Assembly: GCF_007280415.1 (NCBI RefSeq) | Contig: NZ_VKKU01000002.1 | Span: forward strand, 806,001 to 870,000 | Direction of reading: 5' to 3' | DNA from: Sphingorhabdus contaminans | GTDB taxonomy: Bacteria; Pseudomonadota; Alphaproteobacteria; Sphingomonadales; Sphingomonadaceae | DNA: 64,000 nucleotides | In this document: piece after piece, positions 16,333-26,217 of the stretch | How positions within the stretch are numbered: the stretch's first letter is position 1 | Layout of the letters: every line of letters starts with the position of its first letter | Program-made: the position numbers and the translations under genes | Notes under the pieces: generated by a model | Seen by the model: the letters and a program-made list of their open reading frames with translations, nothing else | What the model was told of the DNA's origin: nothing | Database searches by the model: none

Positions 16333-17217
16333 TCAATCCCGACCGAGCGGGTCCAGTGCGCTGCGGCGGGGCGCAGCCGGCATCTCGCCGGTGCGCACTT
16401 CCCCTGCAAGATCCTGCAAAGCAGCAATGCGATTTTCCGTTGCGGGATGGGTGGAAAACAGCTCGGACACCTGCGTCGGCACGATGTAGAGTTGCGCCGC
16501 CGATGGGTTGGCCTCGCTTACCGGATTGCGAATGGCCTGCGCCGCGCCCGAAATTTTGGCGAGGGCAGAGGCAAGAGCCATCGGCTTTCCGGAAATTTCC
16601 GCGCCACCCCGGTCGGCGCCATATTCACGGGTGCGGCTGATCGCCATCTGGACGATCATCGCGGCAAAAGGCGCCACCAGCACCGCGGCCAGGGCCGCAA
16701 GACCGCCGCTGCGGTCGTCCCCGCTGCGGAAAAAGAGACCGAAATTGGCAAGCATCGAAATGGCACCGGCGATGGTCGCCACCATGGTCATGATCAATGT
16801 GTCGCGATTCTTCACATGTGCCAGTTCGTGCGCCATCACCCCTTCGATTTCATCCCGGTTGAGCATGTTCATCAAACCGGTGGTCGCCGCGACGGCGGCA
16901 TTTTCGGGATTGCGTCCGGTGGCAAAGGCGTTGGGATGCGGGCTGTCGATAATATAGACTTTAGGCATCGGCAGTTCGGCCCGCTGGGCAAGGTTGCGCA
17001 CCATGCTATAAAATTCGGGCGCGCTGTCGATGTCGACCTCGCGCGCGTCGTGCATGCGCAGCACGATCTTGTCGGCGTTCCAGAACGTGAAAATATTCAT
17101 TCCAAAGGCGACGAGAAGCGCAATCATCGCGCCGCCCGTTCCGCCCAGTATATAGCCCAGCGCCATGAACAGCGCGGTCAGCCCGGCCAGTAACATTGTG
17201 GTTTTGAGCATGTTCAT
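16333..17217 (-). CDS. htpX: Membrane zinc metalloprotease HtpX
   Basis: 294-residue M48-family protease for quality control of misfolded inner-membrane proteins. Two N-terminal transmembrane helices (about 5-47), then the zinc site HELAH (H130, E131, H134), then two further hydrophobic segments and a downstream [11 protein letters not shown] segment with the third ligand Glu. Start at ATG 17217, which has AGGAG upstream; the longer frame would add an unlikely extension. The family is usually heat or envelope-stress induced, but no regulatory site is visible. It is divergent from the SDHAF4-like gene across 65 bases. Confidence 0.94.
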
Positions 17218-17282: not shown

Positions 17283-17447
17283 ATGGGCCAGCGCCCACCC
17301 CATGTGAAAGCGCCCGCTTATCTGTCCAAAAGCCCACCCGTGCCGGAGCCCAAGGACGTTGTGCGCAAACCGGAGCCGGATCCCGAGCGGCCGGACCCTG
17401 TGCGCTATGGCGATTGGGAACTTAAAGGCGTCGCCATCGACTTCTGA
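17283..17447 (+). CDS. DUF1674 / succinate dehydrogenase assembly factor 4-like small protein
   Basis: 54-residue protein too short for normal ORF cut-offs. Good ribosome binding site (AAGGAG nine bases before ATG 17283). It is Pro/Lys-rich in the first two thirds and ends with [17 protein letters not shown], which matches the conserved C-terminal RYGDWE-x-KG-x-x-x-DF signature of DUF1674, the family of mitochondrial SDHAF4/Sdh8. In eukaryotes SDHAF4 protects flavinylated SdhA before complex II assembly; bacterial homologues occur in alphaproteobacteria. It is divergent from htpX and 88 bases upstream of the ATP-grasp operon. No sdh genes are in the window. Confidence 0.85.
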
Positions 17448-17535
17448 ACCACGGCATCGGGCGACAAACTGCCCAAAATTTGTGCATGTGCGAAGTTACT
17501 TGTTCTCTGCATTATTTTTGTGCAGACATTAGGCA

Positions 17536-18966
17536 ATGGCAACAAGACCGCCCTGCTTTGACGAGATGCTGAATGAGGACGGGACGCCGCGCGCGGCTTA
17601 TGCAGCCTATCACAAATGGTTCTCCGAACAGGACAGCACCCATCTGAAGCAAAAGGCCCGAGATGCGGAAGAATTTTTCCGGCGGACGGGAATTACCTTT
17701 GCGGTCTATGGGGATGACGAGGCGGAGGAACGGCTGATCCCGTTCGACATCATCCCGCGCATCGTCACCGCACGGCAGTGGACCAAATTATCGCGCGGGA
17801 TCGAACAGCGCGTGCGCGCCATCAACGCCTTTTTGCAGGATATCTACCACCGTCAGGAAATCGTCCGCGCTGGACGCCTGCCTGTCGACCTTCTGGTCAA
17901 AAACGATGCCTTTGTCGCCCAGATGATCGGCTTCACTCCGCCGGGCGGCGTATACACGCATATTGTCGGCATCGATCTTGTCCGCACAGGGCCCGACGAA
18001 TTTCTGGTGCTGGAGGATAATGCCCGCACCCCGTCGGGCGTATCCTATATGCTCGAAAACCGCGAAACGATGATGAACATGTTCCCAGAACTGTTCAGCA
18101 CCATCCGCGTCCGGAATGTCAGCGATTATCCCAAGAACCTGCGCGCTTCGCTCAGCCGCGTTGCCCCGCCGGCCTGCACCGGCGATCCGGTCGTCGCCGT
18201 CCTTACCCCCGGTATCCACAACAGCGCCTATTTCGAACATGCCTTTCTGGCCGACCAGATGGGCGCCGAACTGGTCGAAGGCCATGACATCCGCATCGTC
18301 AATGGCCGGGTCGCCATGCGCACAACCCGCGGGTATCAGCCCATTGACGTGCTGTATCGGCGGCTGGATGACGACTATCTGGACCCCTTGATTTTCAAAC
18401 CGGAATCGGTGCTGGGCATACCGGGTATTTTCGATCTGTACCGCGCGGGCAAAATCACGATCGCCAATGCGCCGGGGACCGGGATCGCCGATGACAAGGC
18501 GATTTACAGTTACATGCCCGACATCGTCGAATTTTATACCGGCGAAAAACCGATCCTGAAAAATGTCGATACATGGCGCTGTTCGGAACCCGATTCCCTC
18601 GCCTATGTGCTTGACCATCTGTCTGAACTGGTCGTCAAAGAAGTGCATGGATCGGGCGGCTATGGCATGCTGATCGGGCCTGCCGCGAGCAAGAAGGAAC
18701 TGGCGGCGTTCACGGCAAAACTGAAGGCCAAACCGGCCAATTATATTGCGCAACCGACGCTTGCCCTGTCAACCATACCCATTTTCGCCAATAGCGGCCT
18801 TGCCCCCCGCCATGTGGACCTGCGGCCTTTTGTTCTGGTGTCGCCCGACAAGATCGACATCACGCCCGGTGGCCTGACCCGTGTGGCCTTGCGCAAGGGA
18901 TCGCTGGTGGTCAATTCCAGCCAGGGCGGCGGAACCAAGGATAGCTGGGTGATCGAGGATGATTAA
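17536..18966 (+). CDS. Circularly permuted ATP-grasp protein (type 2)
   Basis: 476 residues of the circularly permuted ATP-grasp family (DUF404/DUF407 region). Visible blocks include GGVYTHIVGIDLVRTG, EDNARTPSGVSYMLENR, YRRLDDDYLDP, NAPGTGIADDKAIYSYMP, KEVHGSGGYGMLIGP (glycine-rich ATP loop) and a C-terminal VNSSQGGGTKDSWV. Such enzymes are predicted to form an amide or peptide-like bond using ATP and an acyl-phosphate intermediate, but their substrates are not established. First gene of a four-gene operon with the alpha-E protein, a transglutaminase and Anbu; the next gene starts three bases after its stop. The AT-rich stretch 17490-17530 before it probably holds the promoter. Confidence 0.92.
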   Translation: MATRPPCFDEMLNEDGTPRAAYAAYHKWFSEQDSTHLKQKARDAEEFFRRTGITFAVYGDDEAEERLIPFDIIPRIVTARQWTKLSRGIEQRVRAINAFLQDIYHRQEIVRAGRLPVDLLVKNDAFVAQMIGFTPPGGVYTHIVGIDLVRTGPDEFLVLEDNARTPSGVSYMLENRETMMNMFPELFSTIRVRNVSDYPKNLRASLSRVAPPACTGDPVVAVLTPGIHNSAYFEHAFLADQMGAELVEGHDIRIVNGRVAMRTTRGYQPIDVLYRRLDDDYLDPLIFKPESVLGIPGIFDLYRAGKITIANAPGTGIADDKAIYSYMPDIVEFYTGEKPILKNVDTWRCSEPDSLAYVLDHLSELVVKEVHGSGGYGMLIGPAASKKELAAFTAKLKAKPANYIAQPTLALSTIPIFANSGLAPRHVDLRPFVLVSPDKIDITPGGLTRVALRKGSLVVNSSQGGGTKDSWVIEDD

Positions 18967-18969
18967 GCC

Positions 18970-19911
18970 ATGCTAGGCAAGACCGCTTCCGGCATATTCT
19001 GGATGTTCCGCTATCTGGAGCGGGCGGAAAATATTGCCCGGCTGATCGAAACCGGACACCGTTTCACCCTGACCCGCAACCGCGGCCGACAGGACGAATG
19101 GCGCTCGATCCTTTCCGCATTGGGCATGGATGCGGCCTATCGCGCCAATCATGACGAATATAATGCCGCACAGGTTGTCGACTATCTGCTGCGCGACAAG
19201 ACCAATCCCGGCAATTTGCGCAACCTGATCGACAGCGCCCGGCAAAATGCCCGCACCACCCGCACCGCAATCACGCGCGAATTGTGGGAGGCGGTCAACG
19301 AATGCTGGATCTGCGTCAACGATGCCCTGAAACGGCAAGTGCGCGAGGCGGAATTGCCCGCGACGATCGACCTGATCGAGCGGCAGACGTCGCAAGTGCG
19401 CGGTGCGCTGGAAAACACCATGCTGCGCAATGACGGCTATAATTTCAGCAGGGTCGGCAATTTTATCGAACGCGCCGACAGCATGGCGCGGCTTCTTGAC
19501 GTCAAATATTATGTGCTTTTGCCGTCCGTCTCCTTTGTGGGATCGTCACTCGACAATATACAGTGGGAAACGATCCTGCGGTCGACCTCGGCCTATAGCG
19601 CCTATCGCTGGCTCTACCCCGGCAGGGCAAGTGCGCTCGGCATAGCGGACTTCCTCATCCTCGACCGCCGTTTTCCGCGCAGCCTTGCCTTTTGCTATGG
19701 CAAGCTGACCGATAATCTGCGCCACCTTGCCATGTCCTATGGCGTCCAGTCGGACAGTCTGACCGAAGCCGAGCGCATCTACGCAGGGTTCGCATCGATG
19801 ACGGCGGCATCGATATTGGAGGACGGATTGCACGAATTTCTTGTCGATTTTCTTGCGCAGAACCGCCGGCTCGCCGCCATGGTGGAGCAGGAATATAGGT
19901 TCAACTCCTGA
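18970..19911 (+). CDS. Alpha-E domain protein (DUF403)
   Basis: 313-residue, nearly all-helical protein of the alpha-E family. It opens with MLGKTASGIFWMFRYLERAE, part of which (WMFRYLERAENIARL) is the conserved helix with acidic residues that names the family, and a second copy-like motif appears as NFIERADSMARLLD. Alpha-E proteins nearly always accompany circularly permuted ATP-grasp enzymes and are thought to be their partner or a helper in the same reaction; the biochemical role is unknown. It is separated from the ATP-grasp gene by three bases and overlaps the transglutaminase gene by one (TGATG). Confidence 0.92.
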   Translation: MLGKTASGIFWMFRYLERAENIARLIETGHRFTLTRNRGRQDEWRSILSALGMDAAYRANHDEYNAAQVVDYLLRDKTNPGNLRNLIDSARQNARTTRTAITRELWEAVNECWICVNDALKRQVREAELPATIDLIERQTSQVRGALENTMLRNDGYNFSRVGNFIERADSMARLLDVKYYVLLPSVSFVGSSLDNIQWETILRSTSAYSAYRWLYPGRASALGIADFLILDRRFPRSLAFCYGKLTDNLRHLAMSYGVQSDSLTEAERIYAGFASMTAASILEDGLHEFLVDFLAQNRRLAAMVEQEYRFNS

Positions 19912-20711
19912 TGCTTTTGTCCATCCACCATCTTACCGAATATCAATTTGACCAGCCGGTCCATTATGCGCTGCAACGGCTGAAGCTGCGTCCCAAGGAC
20001 GGGGCGGGGCAGCAGATTGTGGATTGGACCCTGACGGTCGATGGCGGCAAGGTCGAGGCCGAGCATGACGATCCGCACAATAACCATGTGACCCTGATTT
20101 CGATCGAAGAAGGCCGCACCGCCATCACGATCAGCTGTCAGGGGCAGGTGGAAACCACCGATAACCACGGCATATTGGGCCGCCACCGCAGCCATGTGCC
20201 GCTCTGGGCCTATTGCCGTCCGACGCGGCTGACAACGGCGGGGCGGGGCGTGCAAAAGCTTTTGTCGGGAATGGAGCGGGACCAGAACGACCGGCTGGCG
20301 CTGTTGCACCAGCTATCGGCCCATATCCTCGCCTCGGTCACCTATCAGGGCGGGGCGACGGGCGTCGACAGCAGCGCCGAAAATGCCATCGCCGCAGGGG
20401 CGGGTGTCTGTCAGGATCATGCCCATATCTTCATCGCCGCCTGCCGGTCCATGGGGATCCCGGCGCGCTATGTGTCCGGTTACCTGATGATGGACGGGCA
20501 GGTGGAACAGTCCGCCAGCCATGCCTGGGCGGAGGCGCATGTCGATGCCATCGGCTGGGTCGGGTTCGATATCTCGAACGGCATCAGCCCCGATGGCCGC
20601 TATGTCCGCGTGGCGACCGGCTTCGACTATCGGGACGCCGCGCCGATTTCGGGCATGTCCTTTGGCGCGCGGGACAAAAGCATGGTTGTCAGCTTGCGGG
20701 TGGAACAGTAA
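19911..20711 (+). CDS. Bacterial transglutaminase-like cysteine peptidase
   Basis: 266-residue protein with the N-terminal beta domain found before bacterial transglutaminase cores (LSIHHLTEYQFDQPV, KLRPKD) and a papain-fold core. The catalytic triad is visible: C167 in GAGVCQDHAH, H204 in ASHAWAEAH and D220 in WVGFDISNG. The arrangement is that of peptide hydrolases or amidases of this superfamily. No signal peptide, so it is presumably cytoplasmic, like the other members of the cluster. Start ATG overlaps the stop of the alpha-E gene. Within the cluster it may remove or process what the ATP-grasp enzyme adds; this is inference. Confidence 0.9.
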   Translation: MLLSIHHLTEYQFDQPVHYALQRLKLRPKDGAGQQIVDWTLTVDGGKVEAEHDDPHNNHVTLISIEEGRTAITISCQGQVETTDNHGILGRHRSHVPLWAYCRPTRLTTAGRGVQKLLSGMERDQNDRLALLHQLSAHILASVTYQGGATGVDSSAENAIAAGAGVCQDHAHIFIAACRSMGIPARYVSGYLMMDGQVEQSASHAWAEAHVDAIGWVGFDISNGISPDGRYVRVATGFDYRDAAPISGMSFGARDKSMVVSLRVEQ

Positions 20712-20748
20712 GCGGATCAAAATCAAGGGTCGGGGGACTTTTCGGATA

Positions 20749-21495
20749 ATGACTTATTGCGTGGGAATGTTGCTGGATAAGGGCATGGCCTTCATGTCCG
20801 ACACGCGCACCAATTCAGGCGTCGACAATATATCGACCTTCCGCAAGATGTTCAGCTGGTCCGTCCCCGGCGACCGTTTCATCACCATGATGACCGCAGG
20901 CAATCTCGCCACGACGCAGGCGCTGATCAGCCAGCTGGAGGAGCGGACCAAGGCGCCGAGCGAGCGCAAGCCGTCGATATTGGAAGCGCCGACCATGTTT
21001 CAGGTCGCAAATATCATCGGCACCACCCTGCGCGATACCATTGCAGCGCGTGCCCTGACCGGCCCCACCGCCGCCAGCCCTGCCCCCAATTTCAACGCCA
21101 GCGTCATTGTCGGCGGCCAGATCAAGGGCATGGAATCGCGCCTCTACCTTATCTATCCCGAGGGCAATTTTATCGAAGCCAGCCCCGAAACGCCCTTTTT
21201 CCAGATTGGCGAAACCAAATATGGACGGCCCATATTGGTGCGCGGTTTTGAATCGCACATGTCCTTTGCCGACATCACCAAGCTGTTGATGGTGTCGTTC
21301 GATTCCACGCTGAAAGCGAACCTTTCGGTCGGGCTGCCACTCGATCTGACGCTCTACCGCAACGACGAATTTGCCGCTTTCCACGAGCGTCGCATTACCG
21401 CCGACGATCCCTATTTCGAAAAAATCTCGGACAGCTGGAGCGAGGCGCTGCGCAACGCTTTCCATTCGCTGCCGGATTATGAACTTGACGCCTGA
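20749..21495 (+). CDS. Anbu proteasome-related peptidase
   Basis: 248-residue member of the Anbu (ancestral beta subunit) family of Ntn-hydrolases related to proteasome and HslV. The start is ATG 20749, which places a Thr directly after Met; after Met removal T1 would be the nucleophile. Numbering from that Thr, D17 (SDTR) and K32 (FRKMFSW) match the proteasome-type Asp17 and Lys33 roles. Other family blocks: MMTAGNLATTQAL, SVIVGGQIKGMESRLYLIYPEGNFIEA, TPFFQIGETKYGRPIL. A purine-rich GGGGGA lies upstream. The Anbu gene closes the ATP-grasp/alpha-E/transglutaminase operon. Its last 19 bases overlap the convergent monooxygenase-like gene. Confidence 0.92.
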   Translation: MTYCVGMLLDKGMAFMSDTRTNSGVDNISTFRKMFSWSVPGDRFITMMTAGNLATTQALISQLEERTKAPSERKPSILEAPTMFQVANIIGTTLRDTIAARALTGPTAASPAPNFNASVIVGGQIKGMESRLYLIYPEGNFIEASPETPFFQIGETKYGRPILVRGFESHMSFADITKLLMVSFDSTLKANLSVGLPLDLTLYRNDEFAAFHERRITADDPYFEKISDSWSEALRNAFHSLPDYELDA

Positions 21496-21803
21496 TCCTT
21501 GAGGTCAGCAGGCCCGATACCGGTCGCTTCATAGATATCCATCACCGGTCGCTCGGTCGAAAGCCGGCTGATCGCCTGCACAAAGGCAACCGATTCCGGA
21601 ACCGCAAAATGGGTCAGCAGCGATGCGCGGTCCTGCCATTTTTCGACGAAAACCAGCCGATCGGGCTGCTCGCAATCGGCATGGACATTGTGCGCCAGGC
21701 ACCCCGGTTCCGCGCGCGAGCGCTGGCTGTGCGCGATACATTCCGCCTCGATCGCCGCGCGGTTTTCCGCATTGGTCAGCACATGGCCGGTCACGATGAT
21801 CAT
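21477..21803 (-). CDS. Antibiotic biosynthesis monooxygenase (ABM)-domain protein
   Basis: 108-residue protein with the ferredoxin-like ABM fold, similar to YgiN-type quinol monooxygenases. Typical blocks are MIIVTGHVLT, SRAEPGCLAHNVHAD, LVFVEKWQDRASLLTHFA and FVQAISRL. Such proteins oxidise quinols or polycyclic aromatics without a cofactor, or have a regulatory or stress role, so a specific reaction is not assigned. It overlaps the thioesterase gene upstream by four bases and the end of the Anbu gene, which is convergent, by 19 bases. Confidence 0.85.
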   Translation of the reverse strand: MIIVTGHVLTNAENRAAIEAECIAHSQRSRAEPGCLAHNVHADCEQPDRLVFVEKWQDRASLLTHFAVPESVAFVQAISRLSTERPVMDIYEATGIGPADLKDQASSS

Positions 21804-22201
21804 GCAGTTTCTCCCGAAAAAGGCGCGGCAATTTCCGGCCGGACCCGCGCCAGCCGCCCGGACGCCCGGTCGATCATGGCCCAGGTGGTGTTGGCCCGCA
21901 CGATGACCTTGCCCGCCGTATCGACAAAATCGACCCTGCGGTCAAATTGCGCGCCCTTGGGGCTGCTCTCGATCCAGGTCCGGCCCGTCACGCTTTCGCC
22001 TGCGGCAATGTTCCCGCGATAGTCGATCTCGTGCCGGGTCACGACCCAGATATAGGCGGCGATATGCTCGGGCGCAGCCACCGCCTGCCAGTGCGCTGTC
22101 GCCATGTCCTGTATCCATCGCACCCACACGGCATTGTTAACATGGCCGAGTTCGTCAATGTCCGCCGGCGTCGCGGTAAAGCTTTGTGTGAAGGGTGTCA
22201 T
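21800..22201 (-). CDS. Acyl-CoA thioesterase (4-hydroxybenzoyl-CoA thioesterase/YbgC-like hotdog)
   Basis: 133-residue hotdog-fold thioesterase. The signature ADIDELGHVNNAVWVRWIQD corresponds to the active-site Asp-x-x-GH-NN-x-x-Y/W block of 4HBT-like enzymes (Asp in DELGHVNN). Start chosen at ATG 22201, giving a four-base ATGA overlap with the upstream peptidase gene; the reading frame extends 10 codons further, but that extension lies wholly inside the peptidase gene. It hydrolyses an acyl-CoA of unknown chain. It lies in a three-gene minus-strand run S9 peptidase, thioesterase, ABM protein. Confidence 0.87.
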   Translation of the reverse strand: MTPFTQSFTATPADIDELGHVNNAVWVRWIQDMATAHWQAVAAPEHIAAYIWVVTRHEIDYRGNIAAGESVTGRTWIESSPKGAQFDRRVDFVDTAGKVIVRANTTWAMIDRASGRLARVRPEIAAPFSGETA

Positions 22202-24354
22202 GATCCGCTTTTGGCCATCCCCATCTGCCACAGAAGAAAGGCCGCTTCTTCCGCATTTTCACGCAGGCGTTCAAAGCGCCCCGACTTGCCGCCATGCCCT
22301 GCGCCCATATTGGTCTTGAGCAAAAGGACATTGTCGTCGGTCTTCATGGCGCGCAGCTTCGCGACCATTTTCGCAGGCTCCCAATAGGTCACGCGCGGAT
22401 CGTTGAGGCCCGCCGTCCACAGCATCGGCGGATAAGCCTTTGCCTCGACATTATCGTAAGGCGAATAGCTGCGGATATAGTCGAACGCGGCCTTGTCGGT
22501 AATGGGATTGCCCCATTCGGGCCATTCACCGGGCGTCAGCGGCAGGTCTTTGTCGAGCATGGTGTTGAGCACATCGACAAAGGCGACGTGGCTGACCACC
22601 GCGCCGAACAATTCAGGCGCCTGGTTGACCACCGCACCCATCAGTTCGCCGCCCGCCGAACCACCACTCGCCGTTACCTTGCCCTTGCCGGTGAAGCCCA
22701 GGGCGCTCAGCCCCTTTGCCGCGTCGACAAAATCGTTGAAGGTGTTGGTCCGCTTGGTCAGCTTGCCGTCGAGATACCATTGATAACCCAGATCATCACC
22801 GCCCCGGATATGCGCGATGGCATAGGCAAAGCCGCGGTCAACCATGCTGAGCCGGTTGGCGGAAAAGCCCGGCGGAACGGCATAGCCATAAGCGCCATAG
22901 GCATAGAGATGCAGCGGCTGGCTGCCATCTTTCTTGAACCCTTTTTTATAGAGCACGGAAACAGGAACCTTCGTTCCGTCGCGTGCGGTGATCATGACGC
23001 GTTCGGTCACATATTGCGCTGAATCATAGCCGCTCGGGATTTCCTGAACCTTCAGGGTTTCAAGCCGCCCTTCCCTCACATGATAATCATATACCGTGTC
23101 GGGTGTGACCATCGATTCATAGGACAGACGCAGCTTATCGACGTCATATTCCGGGTTGTCGTCAAGTTGGGCAACATAACTCGCCTCGGGGAAGCTGATG
23201 GGCGTCGTGCGTTCGAGGTCATCATAATAACGGATCTCGACCTGATCGAGGCCGGCCTCGCGCCCCTCTACGACGTAGAATTTTTTGAACAAGCTCAGGC
23301 CGGTAATATAATAGTCGTCCGACCCGCCAATCAGTGTCGTCCACTCAGCGGGTTTTTTCAGGCTCGCTGTCGCGATGCGGAAATTCACATGATCGTCGTT
23401 GGTAAGGATATAGAGCGTCCCGTCGCGGACATCGACGCTATACTGCCGGCCGACCTTGCGCGGGGAAATCATGATGGGCGTCGCTGTGGGGTTGCTTGCC
23501 GGAACCAGGCGGACTTCGCTCGTCACATTGTCGCCCGTTGCAATGACAATCCAGTCTTCCTGCGCGGTCAGGCCGACGCCCACGCCAAAGCCGATATCCT
23601 GTTCCTTGTAGAGCAGCTTGGCCGCCGTCAGATCGTCCCCCAGACGGTGATACCAGGCATTGTCCGTGCGCCAGTTTTCATTGGCCAGACCATAGACCAC
23701 GCCCTTGCTGTCGGATGACCAGACGATACCCGACAAGGTGCCGGGAATCACGTCATTCAGATTTTCGCCGGTCGCCAGATTGCGGAAATGCAGGTCGAAC
23801 CGTTCCGATCCGTTATCATCATAGGCATAGGCCAATAGCGTGCCGTCGGGGCTGACTTCTGCGGCGCCAAGGCGGAAATAAGCCTTGCCCTTGGCAAGTT
23901 CATTCTCATCCAGAATCAGCTGGTCCGGTCCACCCGCCACGGGCTTGCGGTAATGCTTGCGATATTGCGCGCCCTCTTCAAATTTGGACCAGTAGATATA
24001 GTCGCCATCCTTTTGCGGAACCGAACTGTCATCTTCTTTGACCCGGCCCTTCATCTCCTGGAATATGGTTTCAGTCAGCGCGGCCTGCGGGGCCATCTGC
24101 GCTTCGAAATAGGCATTTTCCGCCTTCAGATGCTCCAATATTTCTGCGTCATCGATCGTGGGATAGCTTTGATCCTTGAGCCAGTGATAATCATCGGTCA
24201 GCGTCACACCATGATAGGTGGCGCTATGCGGACGCTTGGCCGCGACGGGCGGCTTGATTTCGGCAGCGGATTTTTCGGTCATATTTTCTTTCTGGGCAAA
24301 TAGTGGCGAAGACACAGCGCCAATCATGACAAACAGGGGGAGCAACGCTTTCAT
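22198..24354 (-). CDS. S9 family peptidase (oligopeptidase B-like) with signal peptide
   Basis: 718-residue prolyl-oligopeptidase-family serine peptidase. The N-terminus MKALLPLFVMIGAVSSPLFAQ is split here as a signal peptide of 20 residues with a cleavage-like AQ, so it is likely periplasmic. After that come RPHSATYHGVTLTDDYHWL and a beta-propeller (about 80-440), then the alpha/beta hydrolase. The catalytic Ser is in GGSAGGELMG (about residue 565), the Asp in GLNDPRVTYWEP, and the His in GAGHGGKSGR. The length and motifs match oligopeptidase B (cleavage after basic residues), though specificity is not proven. Divergent from the aminopeptidase P gene 54 bases away. Confidence 0.92.
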   Translation of the reverse strand: MKALLPLFVMIGAVSSPLFAQKENMTEKSAAEIKPPVAAKRPHSATYHGVTLTDDYHWLKDQSYPTIDDAEILEHLKAENAYFEAQMAPQAALTETIFQEMKGRVKEDDSSVPQKDGDYIYWSKFEEGAQYRKHYRKPVAGGPDQLILDENELAKGKAYFRLGAAEVSPDGTLLAYAYDDNGSERFDLHFRNLATGENLNDVIPGTLSGIVWSSDSKGVVYGLANENWRTDNAWYHRLGDDLTAAKLLYKEQDIGFGVGVGLTAQEDWIVIATGDNVTSEVRLVPASNPTATPIMISPRKVGRQYSVDVRDGTLYILTNDDHVNFRIATASLKKPAEWTTLIGGSDDYYITGLSLFKKFYVVEGREAGLDQVEIRYYDDLERTTPISFPEASYVAQLDDNPEYDVDKLRLSYESMVTPDTVYDYHVREGRLETLKVQEIPSGYDSAQYVTERVMITARDGTKVPVSVLYKKGFKKDGSQPLHLYAYGAYGYAVPPGFSANRLSMVDRGFAYAIAHIRGGDDLGYQWYLDGKLTKRTNTFNDFVDAAKGLSALGFTGKGKVTASGGSAGGELMGAVVNQAPELFGAVVSHVAFVDVLNTMLDKDLPLTPGEWPEWGNPITDKAAFDYIRSYSPYDNVEAKAYPPMLWTAGLNDPRVTYWEPAKMVAKLRAMKTDDNVLLLKTNMGAGHGGKSGRFERLRENAEEAAFLLWQMGMAKSGS

Positions 24355-24408: not shown

Positions 24409-26217
24409 ATGTCCACCTATGAAGCCCGCCTAGGCGCCCTGCGCGCGCAATTGAAAAAAGACCAGCTGGACGGATTTGTCGTGCCGATCTGCGACGAACA
24501 TATGTCCGAATATGTCGGCGACTATGCGCAGCGTCTGGGCTGGCTGACGGGCTTTGGCGGTTCGGCAGGATCCGCCGTTGTGCTGAGCGAGGAAGCAGCC
24601 ATTTTCACCGACGGGCGCTACACGCTGCAGGTGCGCGAGCAGGTTGACGGGCAGAACTGGCAATATGTCGGCGTGCCGCAAACCAGCATTGCCGACTGGC
24701 TGAAGGAACATGCACCGGCGGGCGCACGGATCGGATATGATCCGTGGGTCCACACCAAAGGCTGGGTCGAAAGCGCCAGCCGTGCGCTCAAGGCCAAGGG
24801 CGCCGAGCTTGTGGCCGTCAAAAGCAATCCCATTGATGCGGTGTGGGCGGATCAGCCGGCGAAAAGCGATGCCAAGCTGTTGGTGCACGAGGACCGCTAT
24901 GCCGGCCAGAACAGCGCCGAAAAGCGCGCCGCCGTCGCGGAATGGCTGACCGACAATGGCGTCGACAGCACCGTGATTTCGGCGCTGGATTCGGTCGCAT
25001 GGCTTTTGAATGTGCGCGGGTCCGATGTGTCGAACACGCCCGTCGCGCTGAGCTTCGTGCTGGCGCATGCCGACGGAACGGCGGATTTGTTTGTCGCACC
25101 GGAAAAGGTGGACGATGCGGTCAGGGCCCATCTGGGCAATGCCGTCCGGCTGCGCACTCCGGAAGAATTTGTGCCCGCGCTCAAGGCCATGAACGGCAAA
25201 CGTATCGCCGTCGACCCCGACCGCGCGGTTGCTGCCATATTCGGCGCGCTGAAAGATGGCGGCGCGACGATAGTCGAGGCGCGCGATCCCACGATCCTGC
25301 CCAAGGCGATCAAAAACCCTGTCGAACAGGAAGGGCATCGCGCCGCGCAAGCCCGTGATGGCGCAGCATTGAGCCGCTATCTGCACTGGCTTGCCCAAGA
25401 AGCGCACAAGGGCGAACTGACGGAACTTTCCGCAGCGGCGCAACTCCGCGCCTTCCGCGAGGCGACCGGAATGCTGAAGGATCTGAGCTTCGATACCATC
25501 TCGGCCGCCGGACCCAATGGGGCCAGCCCGCATTACAAGGTGGATGAAAAGACAAACCGCCGTATCGACCCCAACAGCATTTATCTGGTCGACAGCGGCG
25601 GCCAGTATCTCGACGGAACTACCGACGTCACGCGCACCATCTGGGTCGGGCCGGGCGAACCGACAGCCGAAATGAAGGACCGCTATACCCGCGTCCTCAA
25701 AGGTCATATCGCGCTTGCCCTTGCCGTCTTTCCGGAAGGTACGCGCGGGGCACAGCTCGACACATTGGCGCGCGCGGCGCTCTGGCAGGCGGGCGTCGAC
25801 TATGCCCACGGCACGGGTCACGGCGTCGGCAGCTTCCTCGCGGTGCACGAGGGCCCGCAACGCATCGGCAAATTCTCCGGTGGCCAGGCCGGAACGGACG
25901 AACCCTTGCAAGCGGGCATGATATTGTCGAACGAGCCCGGCTATTATAAACAGGGCGAATATGGCATCCGGATCGAAAATCTGATCCTGGTGGAGGAGCG
26001 CACGATCGAAGGCGCAGAGGGTCGCTATTTCGGATTCGAAACCCTCACCTTCGCACCGATTGACAAGGCCCTGGTCGACACCAGCCTACTCACCCGCGAT
26101 GAATTGCGGTGGTGGGATGATTACCATGCCAAGGTGCTGAAAATCGTCGCCCCGCAATTGGACGGGGATGCGCTTGCGTGGGTAACCGAAGGCTGCGCAC
26201 CTTTGGCTAAGGGATAG
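24409..26217 (+). CDS. Aminopeptidase P family protein (M24)
   Basis: 602-residue Xaa-Pro aminopeptidase of the three-domain eukaryote-like type. Two creatinase-like N-terminal domains (about 1-310), with RLGWLTGFGGSAGSAVV and SALDSVAWLLNVRGSDVSNTP, precede a pita-bread M24 catalytic domain. The metal ligands are visible: YLVDSGGQYLDGTTDVTRT (two Asp), HGTGHGVGSFLAVHEG (His), NEPGYY (Glu) and GIRIENL (Glu). The length is about 600, which distinguishes it from PepP (440). Probably a single-gene transcription unit. It releases N-terminal residues that precede proline. Confidence 0.93.
   Translation: MSTYEARLGALRAQLKKDQLDGFVVPICDEHMSEYVGDYAQRLGWLTGFGGSAGSAVVLSEEAAIFTDGRYTLQVREQVDGQNWQYVGVPQTSIADWLKEHAPAGARIGYDPWVHTKGWVESASRALKAKGAELVAVKSNPIDAVWADQPAKSDAKLLVHEDRYAGQNSAEKRAAVAEWLTDNGVDSTVISALDSVAWLLNVRGSDVSNTPVALSFVLAHADGTADLFVAPEKVDDAVRAHLGNAVRLRTPEEFVPALKAMNGKRIAVDPDRAVAAIFGALKDGGATIVEARDPTILPKAIKNPVEQEGHRAAQARDGAALSRYLHWLAQEAHKGELTELSAAAQLRAFREATGMLKDLSFDTISAAGPNGASPHYKVDEKTNRRIDPNSIYLVDSGGQYLDGTTDVTRTIWVGPGEPTAEMKDRYTRVLKGHIALALAVFPEGTRGAQLDTLARAALWQAGVDYAHGTGHGVGSFLAVHEGPQRIGKFSGGQAGTDEPLQAGMILSNEPGYYKQGEYGIRIENLILVEERTIEGAEGRYFGFETLTFAPIDKALVDTSLLTRDELRWWDDYHAKVLKIVAPQLDGDALAWVTEGCAPLAKG

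Follow-up and report, generated by a model that had tools for sequence, protein, structure and literature searches.

An intact ATP-grasp, alpha-E, transglutaminase and Anbu operon in Sphingorhabdus contaminans, and the optional place of Anbu beside the other three genes

Genes for Anbu, a relative of the proteasome, have been described as members of an operon (Valas and Bourne 2008; Iyer et al. 2009, as cited in PMC6376114 and PMC5666114). Anbu has solved structures, yet the role of the operon has been unsettled since its first description. The copy considered here lies in a stretch of 64,000 nucleotides of the Sphingorhabdus contaminans genome (contig NZ_VKKU01000002.1, positions 806,001 to 870,000; "the window"). 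At 17536-21495 (+) the window holds four intact open reading frames in a single orientation and order, encoding an ATP-grasp protein, an alpha-E protein, a transglutaminase-like protein (TG) and Anbu; we refer to the first three as the trio. In the four families, their order, the Anbu residues Thr1, Asp17 and Lys32 and the absence of an AAA+ gene from the set, the window operon resembles the published ones (PMC6376114, PMC5666114). It differs from them in nothing essential, except that the sphingomonad copy is without a recognisable sigma-54 promoter.

The window operon is thus a real, intact and ordinary copy of an operon family known from the literature for over a decade, and not a new system. 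A first-pass annotation of the same DNA had named the four genes, called them intact and mentioned a known link between the families. All of this was borne out: family profile and structure-sequence matches agree, and the published descriptions of Anbu operons fit gene for gene (PMC6376114, PMC5666114). The window copy itself is one more intact example; what the comparison contributes are counts and a sharper hypothesis, namely that the trio is a nitrogen-linked amide ligase/hydrolase core module to which Anbu is an optional accessory hydrolase. We give this reading a probability of roughly 0.4.

The four genes and their products

The gaps between the genes are 3 nucleotides (ATP-grasp/alpha-E), -1 nucleotide (alpha-E/TG, a TGATG overlap) and 37 nucleotides (TG/Anbu), so the four genes are likely to form one transcription unit. 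A sigma-70 and terminator scan of the window gave no signal marking the operon. Gene order was compared in 80 named loci, the best 80 of 594 confirmed stretches from one scan of a species genome set. The order ATP-grasp, alpha-E, TG, Anbu was kept in 60 of them, therefore the arrangement is not due to chance. Another 17, all rhizobial or Burkholderia-type, have the first three genes in order and Anbu not beside them. The remaining three are arranged otherwise: L192 is without a TG call, as are the short loci L130 and L166, which end at about 7.6 kb; both belong to the 19 loci that lack an Anbu call, and their lack of Anbu is uninformative. It must be noted that "without Anbu" means here no tblastn match inside the locus stretch; Anbu may sit elsewhere in those genomes.

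The ATP-grasp protein covers the PF14403 profile (CP_ATPgrasp_2) from position 1 to 374 of 374, with 534 bits against a cut-off of 32, and in an alignment of 30 sequences the mean column identity was 78%. It matches PDB 3n6x (phmmer E 2.1e-182), which is Mfla_0391 of Methylobacillus flagellatus, titled putative glutathionylspermidine synthase. Its predicted model has a fold common along the chain with glutathione synthetase, YgiC/YjfC, GspS and Cp1B, which establishes the fold class of the ligase. We did not assign it to the GspS/YgiC-type peptide-amine ligases: the fold is common, and no sequence relation to YgiC or Gss was detected that would join it to the eukaryotic-type glutathione synthetase, GspS and YgiC-YjfC peptide-spermidine ligases.

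The alpha-E protein scores 286 bits against PF04168. It is all-helical, has two ER motifs (E17-R18 and E167-R168) and gives an AlphaFold model with a mean predicted local distance difference test score (pLDDT) of 90.2. We looked for a solved relative and found no clear one, and none by sequence.

TG reaches 73 bits against PF08379 and 83 bits against PF01841, and matches PDB 3isr across its catalytic half. Its triad, Cys167-His204-Asp220, is in place when counted in the translation, as the first-pass annotation had stated, and the same holds for Thr1 (after the Met), Asp17 and Lys32 of Anbu. In an alignment of 29 TG sequences the His and the Asp are invariant and the Cys nearly so; among the named loci the Cys motif is kept in 73 of the 77 TG genes that follow alpha-E. 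Judged by its sequence, TG is a transglutaminase-like enzyme of the papain fold with an intact triad.

Anbu scores only 29.7 bits against PF00227, the Pfam family it shares with HslV. It gave full-length matches to 5loy, 5nyj, 5nyf, 5nyw and 5lox, all with E 6e-61 or better. These five are all that matched in the PDB at E<=0.01; they are titled Anbu (three) or Peptidase (5nyw and 5lox), and none HslV; 5nyw we take to be an Anbu. The other, 5lox, is named Anbu in PMC8665760. The Thr, Asp and Lys are invariant in all 14 Anbus of an alignment of relatives, and by sequence the window protein is nearer to the solved Anbus than to HslV. The longest open reading frame, 20521-21495, was rejected as the Anbu gene, as relatives share a start (MTYC) that falls at 20749 in the window. 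The window genome has a second PF00227 gene at a separate locus (contig C1), which from its length is probably HslV-like.

Occurrence of the trio and of Anbu

The same 89 genomes of the family were searched for each gene. Alpha-E, Anbu and ATP-grasp were each present in 73 of the 89 and the TG N-domain in 72; TG was scored by PF08379, which matches paralogues too, alpha-E of G007, split into two overlapping pieces, was counted as present, and the two pieces of the G065 ATP-grasp lie on separate contigs. Alpha-E and Anbu were both found in 70 genomes and neither in 13, and the remaining 6 were discordant: G027, G028 and G055 have alpha-E without Anbu, and G052, G053 and G075 have Anbu without alpha-E or ATP-grasp. 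The co-occurrence that the first-pass annotation had proposed to check is therefore strong and not absolute. In 66 of the 70 genomes with both, alpha-E and Anbu lie on the same strand within 1.5 kb; in three of the other four they are on different contigs (in G016 Anbu sits where a contig begins), and in one the gap is 1.7 kb. Two genomes with alpha-E had no match to the TG N-domain (G007 and G025), and in G025 Anbu comes directly after alpha-E.

The identity of the family's Anbus to that of the window is bimodal, 53-100% in 42 genomes (subtype 1) and 39-48% in 31 (subtype 2). Alpha-E splits alike (46-54% versus 36-41%, in 28 loci compared beside the window), and so do ATP-grasp and TG. In all 42 genomes whose Anbu is of subtype 1, each of the four families is matched at least once; every missing partner falls in subtype 2, and the three trios without Anbu have a subtype-2-like alpha-E (37-38%). 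Because the subtypes split alike and the missing partners are confined to one of them, the four genes have been inherited for the most part as a block. As the subtypes were defined by Anbu, this does not imply that every subtype-1 trio is accompanied by Anbu: in the named set, trios of rhizobial or Burkholderia type, with Anbu not beside them, have an alpha-E identity of 48-52%.

Among 219 genomes of the phylum, alpha-E was found in 120, ATP-grasp over the cut-off in 121 and Anbu in 77, one of these matches (G235) being a 43-residue piece. Of the 77 genomes with Anbu, 76 have alpha-E as well, and Anbu was unmatched in 44 of the 120 alpha-E genomes, some genomes being incomplete. The same gap was seen in the 179 genomes with a completeness of 90% or more and a contamination of 5% or less (alpha-E 105, Anbu 71). 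In the phylum the range of Anbu is nested within that of the trio. Since Anbu is unmatched in so many alpha-E genomes and does not stand beside the trio in 17 named loci, it is not an obligatory last step of whatever the operon does.

This bears on the pathway put forward in the first-pass annotation, in which a peptide tag would be made at the expense of ATP, TG would remove it and Anbu would degrade or trim. In its published form ATP-grasp and alpha-E would put the tag on proteins, in analogy to pupylation and deubiquitination. The annotation's scheme is close to a hypothesis of Iyer et al. 2009 (as cited in PMC6376114 and PMC5666114). It suits the gene set with its intact active sites and the kinship of Anbu with the proteasome, and it gained no direct support here. 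The trios without Anbu weaken it. The Anbus of three species showed no peptidase activity, leaving three standard proteasome (AMC) substrates uncleaved (PMC6376114), and Anbu assembles into an open ring with no AAA+ gene adjoining (PMC5666114). The small conserved peptide that might serve as a substrate was not seen either: among open reading frames of at least 50 residues in the 80 named loci, called by codon scores trained on the window and then clustered, the largest extra cluster was found in 9 loci, and there is neither a conserved fifth gene nor a conserved peptide of this size in the flanks. We regard the tag pathway as unlikely.

Some variants of the operon also occur. The nearest genes of the three Anbu-only copies (L061, L062 and L063, in G052, G053 and G075) are unrelated to the trio and encode an alpha/beta hydrolase, a response regulator, presumably CtrA-like, and a pyridine-nucleotide oxidoreductase. 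G081 has two Anbu genes, one behind a trio and one elsewhere (L064, G081:C23; L008, G081:C1), and L070 (G055), a trio without Anbu, has two extra TG-like genes ahead of it. In G068, of the same genus as the window, alpha-E, ATP-grasp and Anbu were not found. At the empty site RsmB and DUF1674 are both matched; for the M48 gene a match was lacking, which taken alone means nothing, so loss and gain of the operon are indistinguishable. A fused ATP-grasp/alpha-E paralogue occurs in 18 of the 89 family genomes, in open frames of 836-956 residues (e.g. G056:C89:2992-5181), with TG-domain genes near it in some genomes, some in open frames of more than 1100 residues. It has the same two domains as the operon and differs in that they are fused; the window genome has a single match each for ATP-grasp and alpha-E.

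Nitrogen regulation and the proposed reactions

In a Burkholderia cenocepacia ntrC mutant the operon genes I35_5080-5083 change by log2 -6.0 to -9.4, and the study gives them as targets shared by sigma-54 and NtrC (PMC5491218). In Pseudomonas putida, with nitrate compared to ammonium, log2 values of 4.44 for PP_2685 and 3.99 for PP_2688 were reported (PMC8050072). Two Burkholderia loci of our set (L194 and L201) have upstream an NtrC-like site matching 11 of 12 consensus positions and sigma-54-like sites matching 11/12 and 10/12. Enough upstream sequence was present in 76 named loci; sites of at least 10/12 likeness to sigma-54 were found in 12 of the 18 that lack Anbu (L166 being one of the 12) as opposed to 7 of the 58 that have it. 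All 12 come from rhizobial/Rhizobiales or Burkholderia records, and shared ancestry may be the cause of the excess. Rhizobial loci in which Anbu is not beside the trio have in common a weaker sigma-54-like element, GCA-YR-N4-TTGCA, which begins 38-64 bp upstream of the called ATP-grasp start (Table 1). The window genome encodes sigma-54 (rpoN).

That nitrogen limitation induces the trio, at least in Pseudomonas and Burkholderia, is part of the core-module reading and is put forward with the same reserve. Such induction would argue for scavenging or remodelling rather than for the building of a nitrogen store. It is possible that the substrate of ATP-grasp is a carboxylate, probably on a peptide or amino-acid conjugate, which the enzyme phosphorylates and couples to an amine; the structural relatives and the published ATP-dependent phosphate release of one member suggest this step. 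Alpha-E would act as the partner subunit of ATP-grasp, as the co-occurrence of the two in genomes and their fusion in the paralogous system suggest. The amidase of glutathionylspermidine synthetase/amidase has a papain-like fold, and TG, with its Cys-His-Asp site, might similarly open or transfer an amide bond. In a last step, dispensable in many species, the N-terminal Thr of Anbu might hydrolyse another amide in this conjugate; that both enzymes could hydrolyse is suggested by their intact active sites.

A narrower version of the core-module reading, which we consider doubtful, would make the core a nitrogen-regulated peptide-amine ligase/amidase cycle rather than a proteasome pathway, analogous to glutathionylspermidine synthetase/amidase: ATP-grasp with alpha-E would join the carboxylate of a peptide to an amino acid or polyamine, TG would reverse the bond or transfer it, and Anbu would be an optional Ntn-amidase of the same conjugate. 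The comparison as a whole would redirect attention to the trio as the core, and from proteasome substrates to the product of the trio as that on which Anbu acts as an accessory. If true, the narrower version would explain the failure of Anbu on proteasome substrates and would make alpha-E, a family for which we found no solved structure, an obligate ligase subunit.

Several observations weigh against the nitrogen-linked module or against one of its parts. In Pseudomonas putida under nitrogen limitation PP_2686-2688 were up 11-15-fold in the wild type and Anbu (PP_2685) 1.12-fold, and in an rpoN mutant PP_2686-2688 were still up 14-20-fold (PMC7801951). The P. putida study is therefore no proof of sigma-54 dependence and speaks against strict sigma-54 control there. 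The best sigma-54 match of the window promoter is 8/12, equalled by 90% of shuffles, and its NtrC-like palindrome matches 10/12 consensus positions, a score that 2 of 60 Markov shuffles attained and that could be due to chance; from its promoter sequence the window operon would not be counted in the NtrC/sigma-54 regulon. The predicted ATP-grasp model is middling (mean pLDDT 70.5), and hhalign of the ATP-grasp profile against the single sequences of E. coli YgiC and Gss gave probabilities of 1.8 and 0.3, that is, no relation, so what ATP-grasp may act on is suggested by its fold alone. In L194 (7053-7961, +) and L201 (7053-7925, +) the TG that follows alpha-E carries Ser in place of the triad Cys, hence the small TG cannot perform the amidase step there; both loci have a 1137-residue TG-family gene in the place of Anbu. 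Published pull-downs revealed no specific complex between Anbu and other operon proteins (PMC6376114). The three family genomes that have Anbu without alpha-E or ATP-grasp also fit poorly with an accessory of the trio.

Nitrogen could also be obtained more directly: Anbu would degrade untagged proteins or peptides, TG would free ammonia from glutamine side chains and ATP-grasp and alpha-E would adapt the substrates. A version of this idea has been put forward in PMC6376114, the expression under nitrogen limitation (PMC8050072, PMC5491218, PMC7801951) agrees with it, and M48, S9 and M24 peptidase genes flank the window operon. Against it, no flanking gene, the peptidases included, is kept in more than 9 of the 80 named loci, the trio was induced and Anbu hardly so in the P. 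putida data (PMC7801951), and the rhizobial and Burkholderia-type trios stand without Anbu beside them. On balance such scavenging proteolysis seems improbable. Synthesis of a diffusible peptide-amine natural product, be it a small molecule or a peptide, is very unlikely: Cp1B of E-64 synthesis and the trypanothione/glutathionylspermidine synthetases are among the structural relatives (PMC12568646), but the operon is common in the family and inherited as a block, and no transporter or tailoring gene is conserved beside it in the 80 named loci.

Surroundings of the window operon

The features of the window, together with the loci carrying the rhizobial upstream element, are collected in Table 1.

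Table 1. Genes and sequence elements in and around the window operon, and loci with a sigma-54-like upstream element
Feature	Position or loci	Strand	Remarks
Circularly permuted ATP-grasp amide ligase (putative)	17536..18966	+	PF14403; 476 aa
Alpha-E protein	18970..19911	+	PF04168; 313 aa
Transglutaminase/papain-fold enzyme (putative)	19911..20711	+	Bact_transglu_N + Transglut_core; 266 aa
Anbu, proteasome-like Ntn-hydrolase family protein	20749..21495	+	248 aa; start set by MTYC of relatives
NtrC-like palindrome TGCA-N9-TGCA	17508..17524		adjoins ATP-grasp start upstream; weak candidate regulatory site
GCA-YR-N4-TTGCA element	L140, L154, L155, L157, L158, L165, L166, L172, L174, L183		upstream of ATP-grasp
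M48 peptidase gene	16333-17217	-	
DUF1674 protein	17283-17447	+	54 aa
ABM-family gene	21477-21803	-	overlaps Anbu 3' end
S9 prolyl oligopeptidase gene	22198-24354	-	
M24 peptidase gene	24409-26217	+	

An NCBIfam family scan of the operon proteins gave no result, and the PADLOC anti-phage defence models had 0 matches to the four proteins at E<=0.001. The DUF1674 protein, whose gene precedes the operon by 88 nucleotides and has the same orientation, was considered as an operon substrate and rejected, because it matches 52 residues in G068, a genome in which alpha-E, ATP-grasp and Anbu went unmatched. At the other end the ABM-family gene, on the opposite strand, overlaps the Anbu 3' end, so Anbu is the last gene of the operon.

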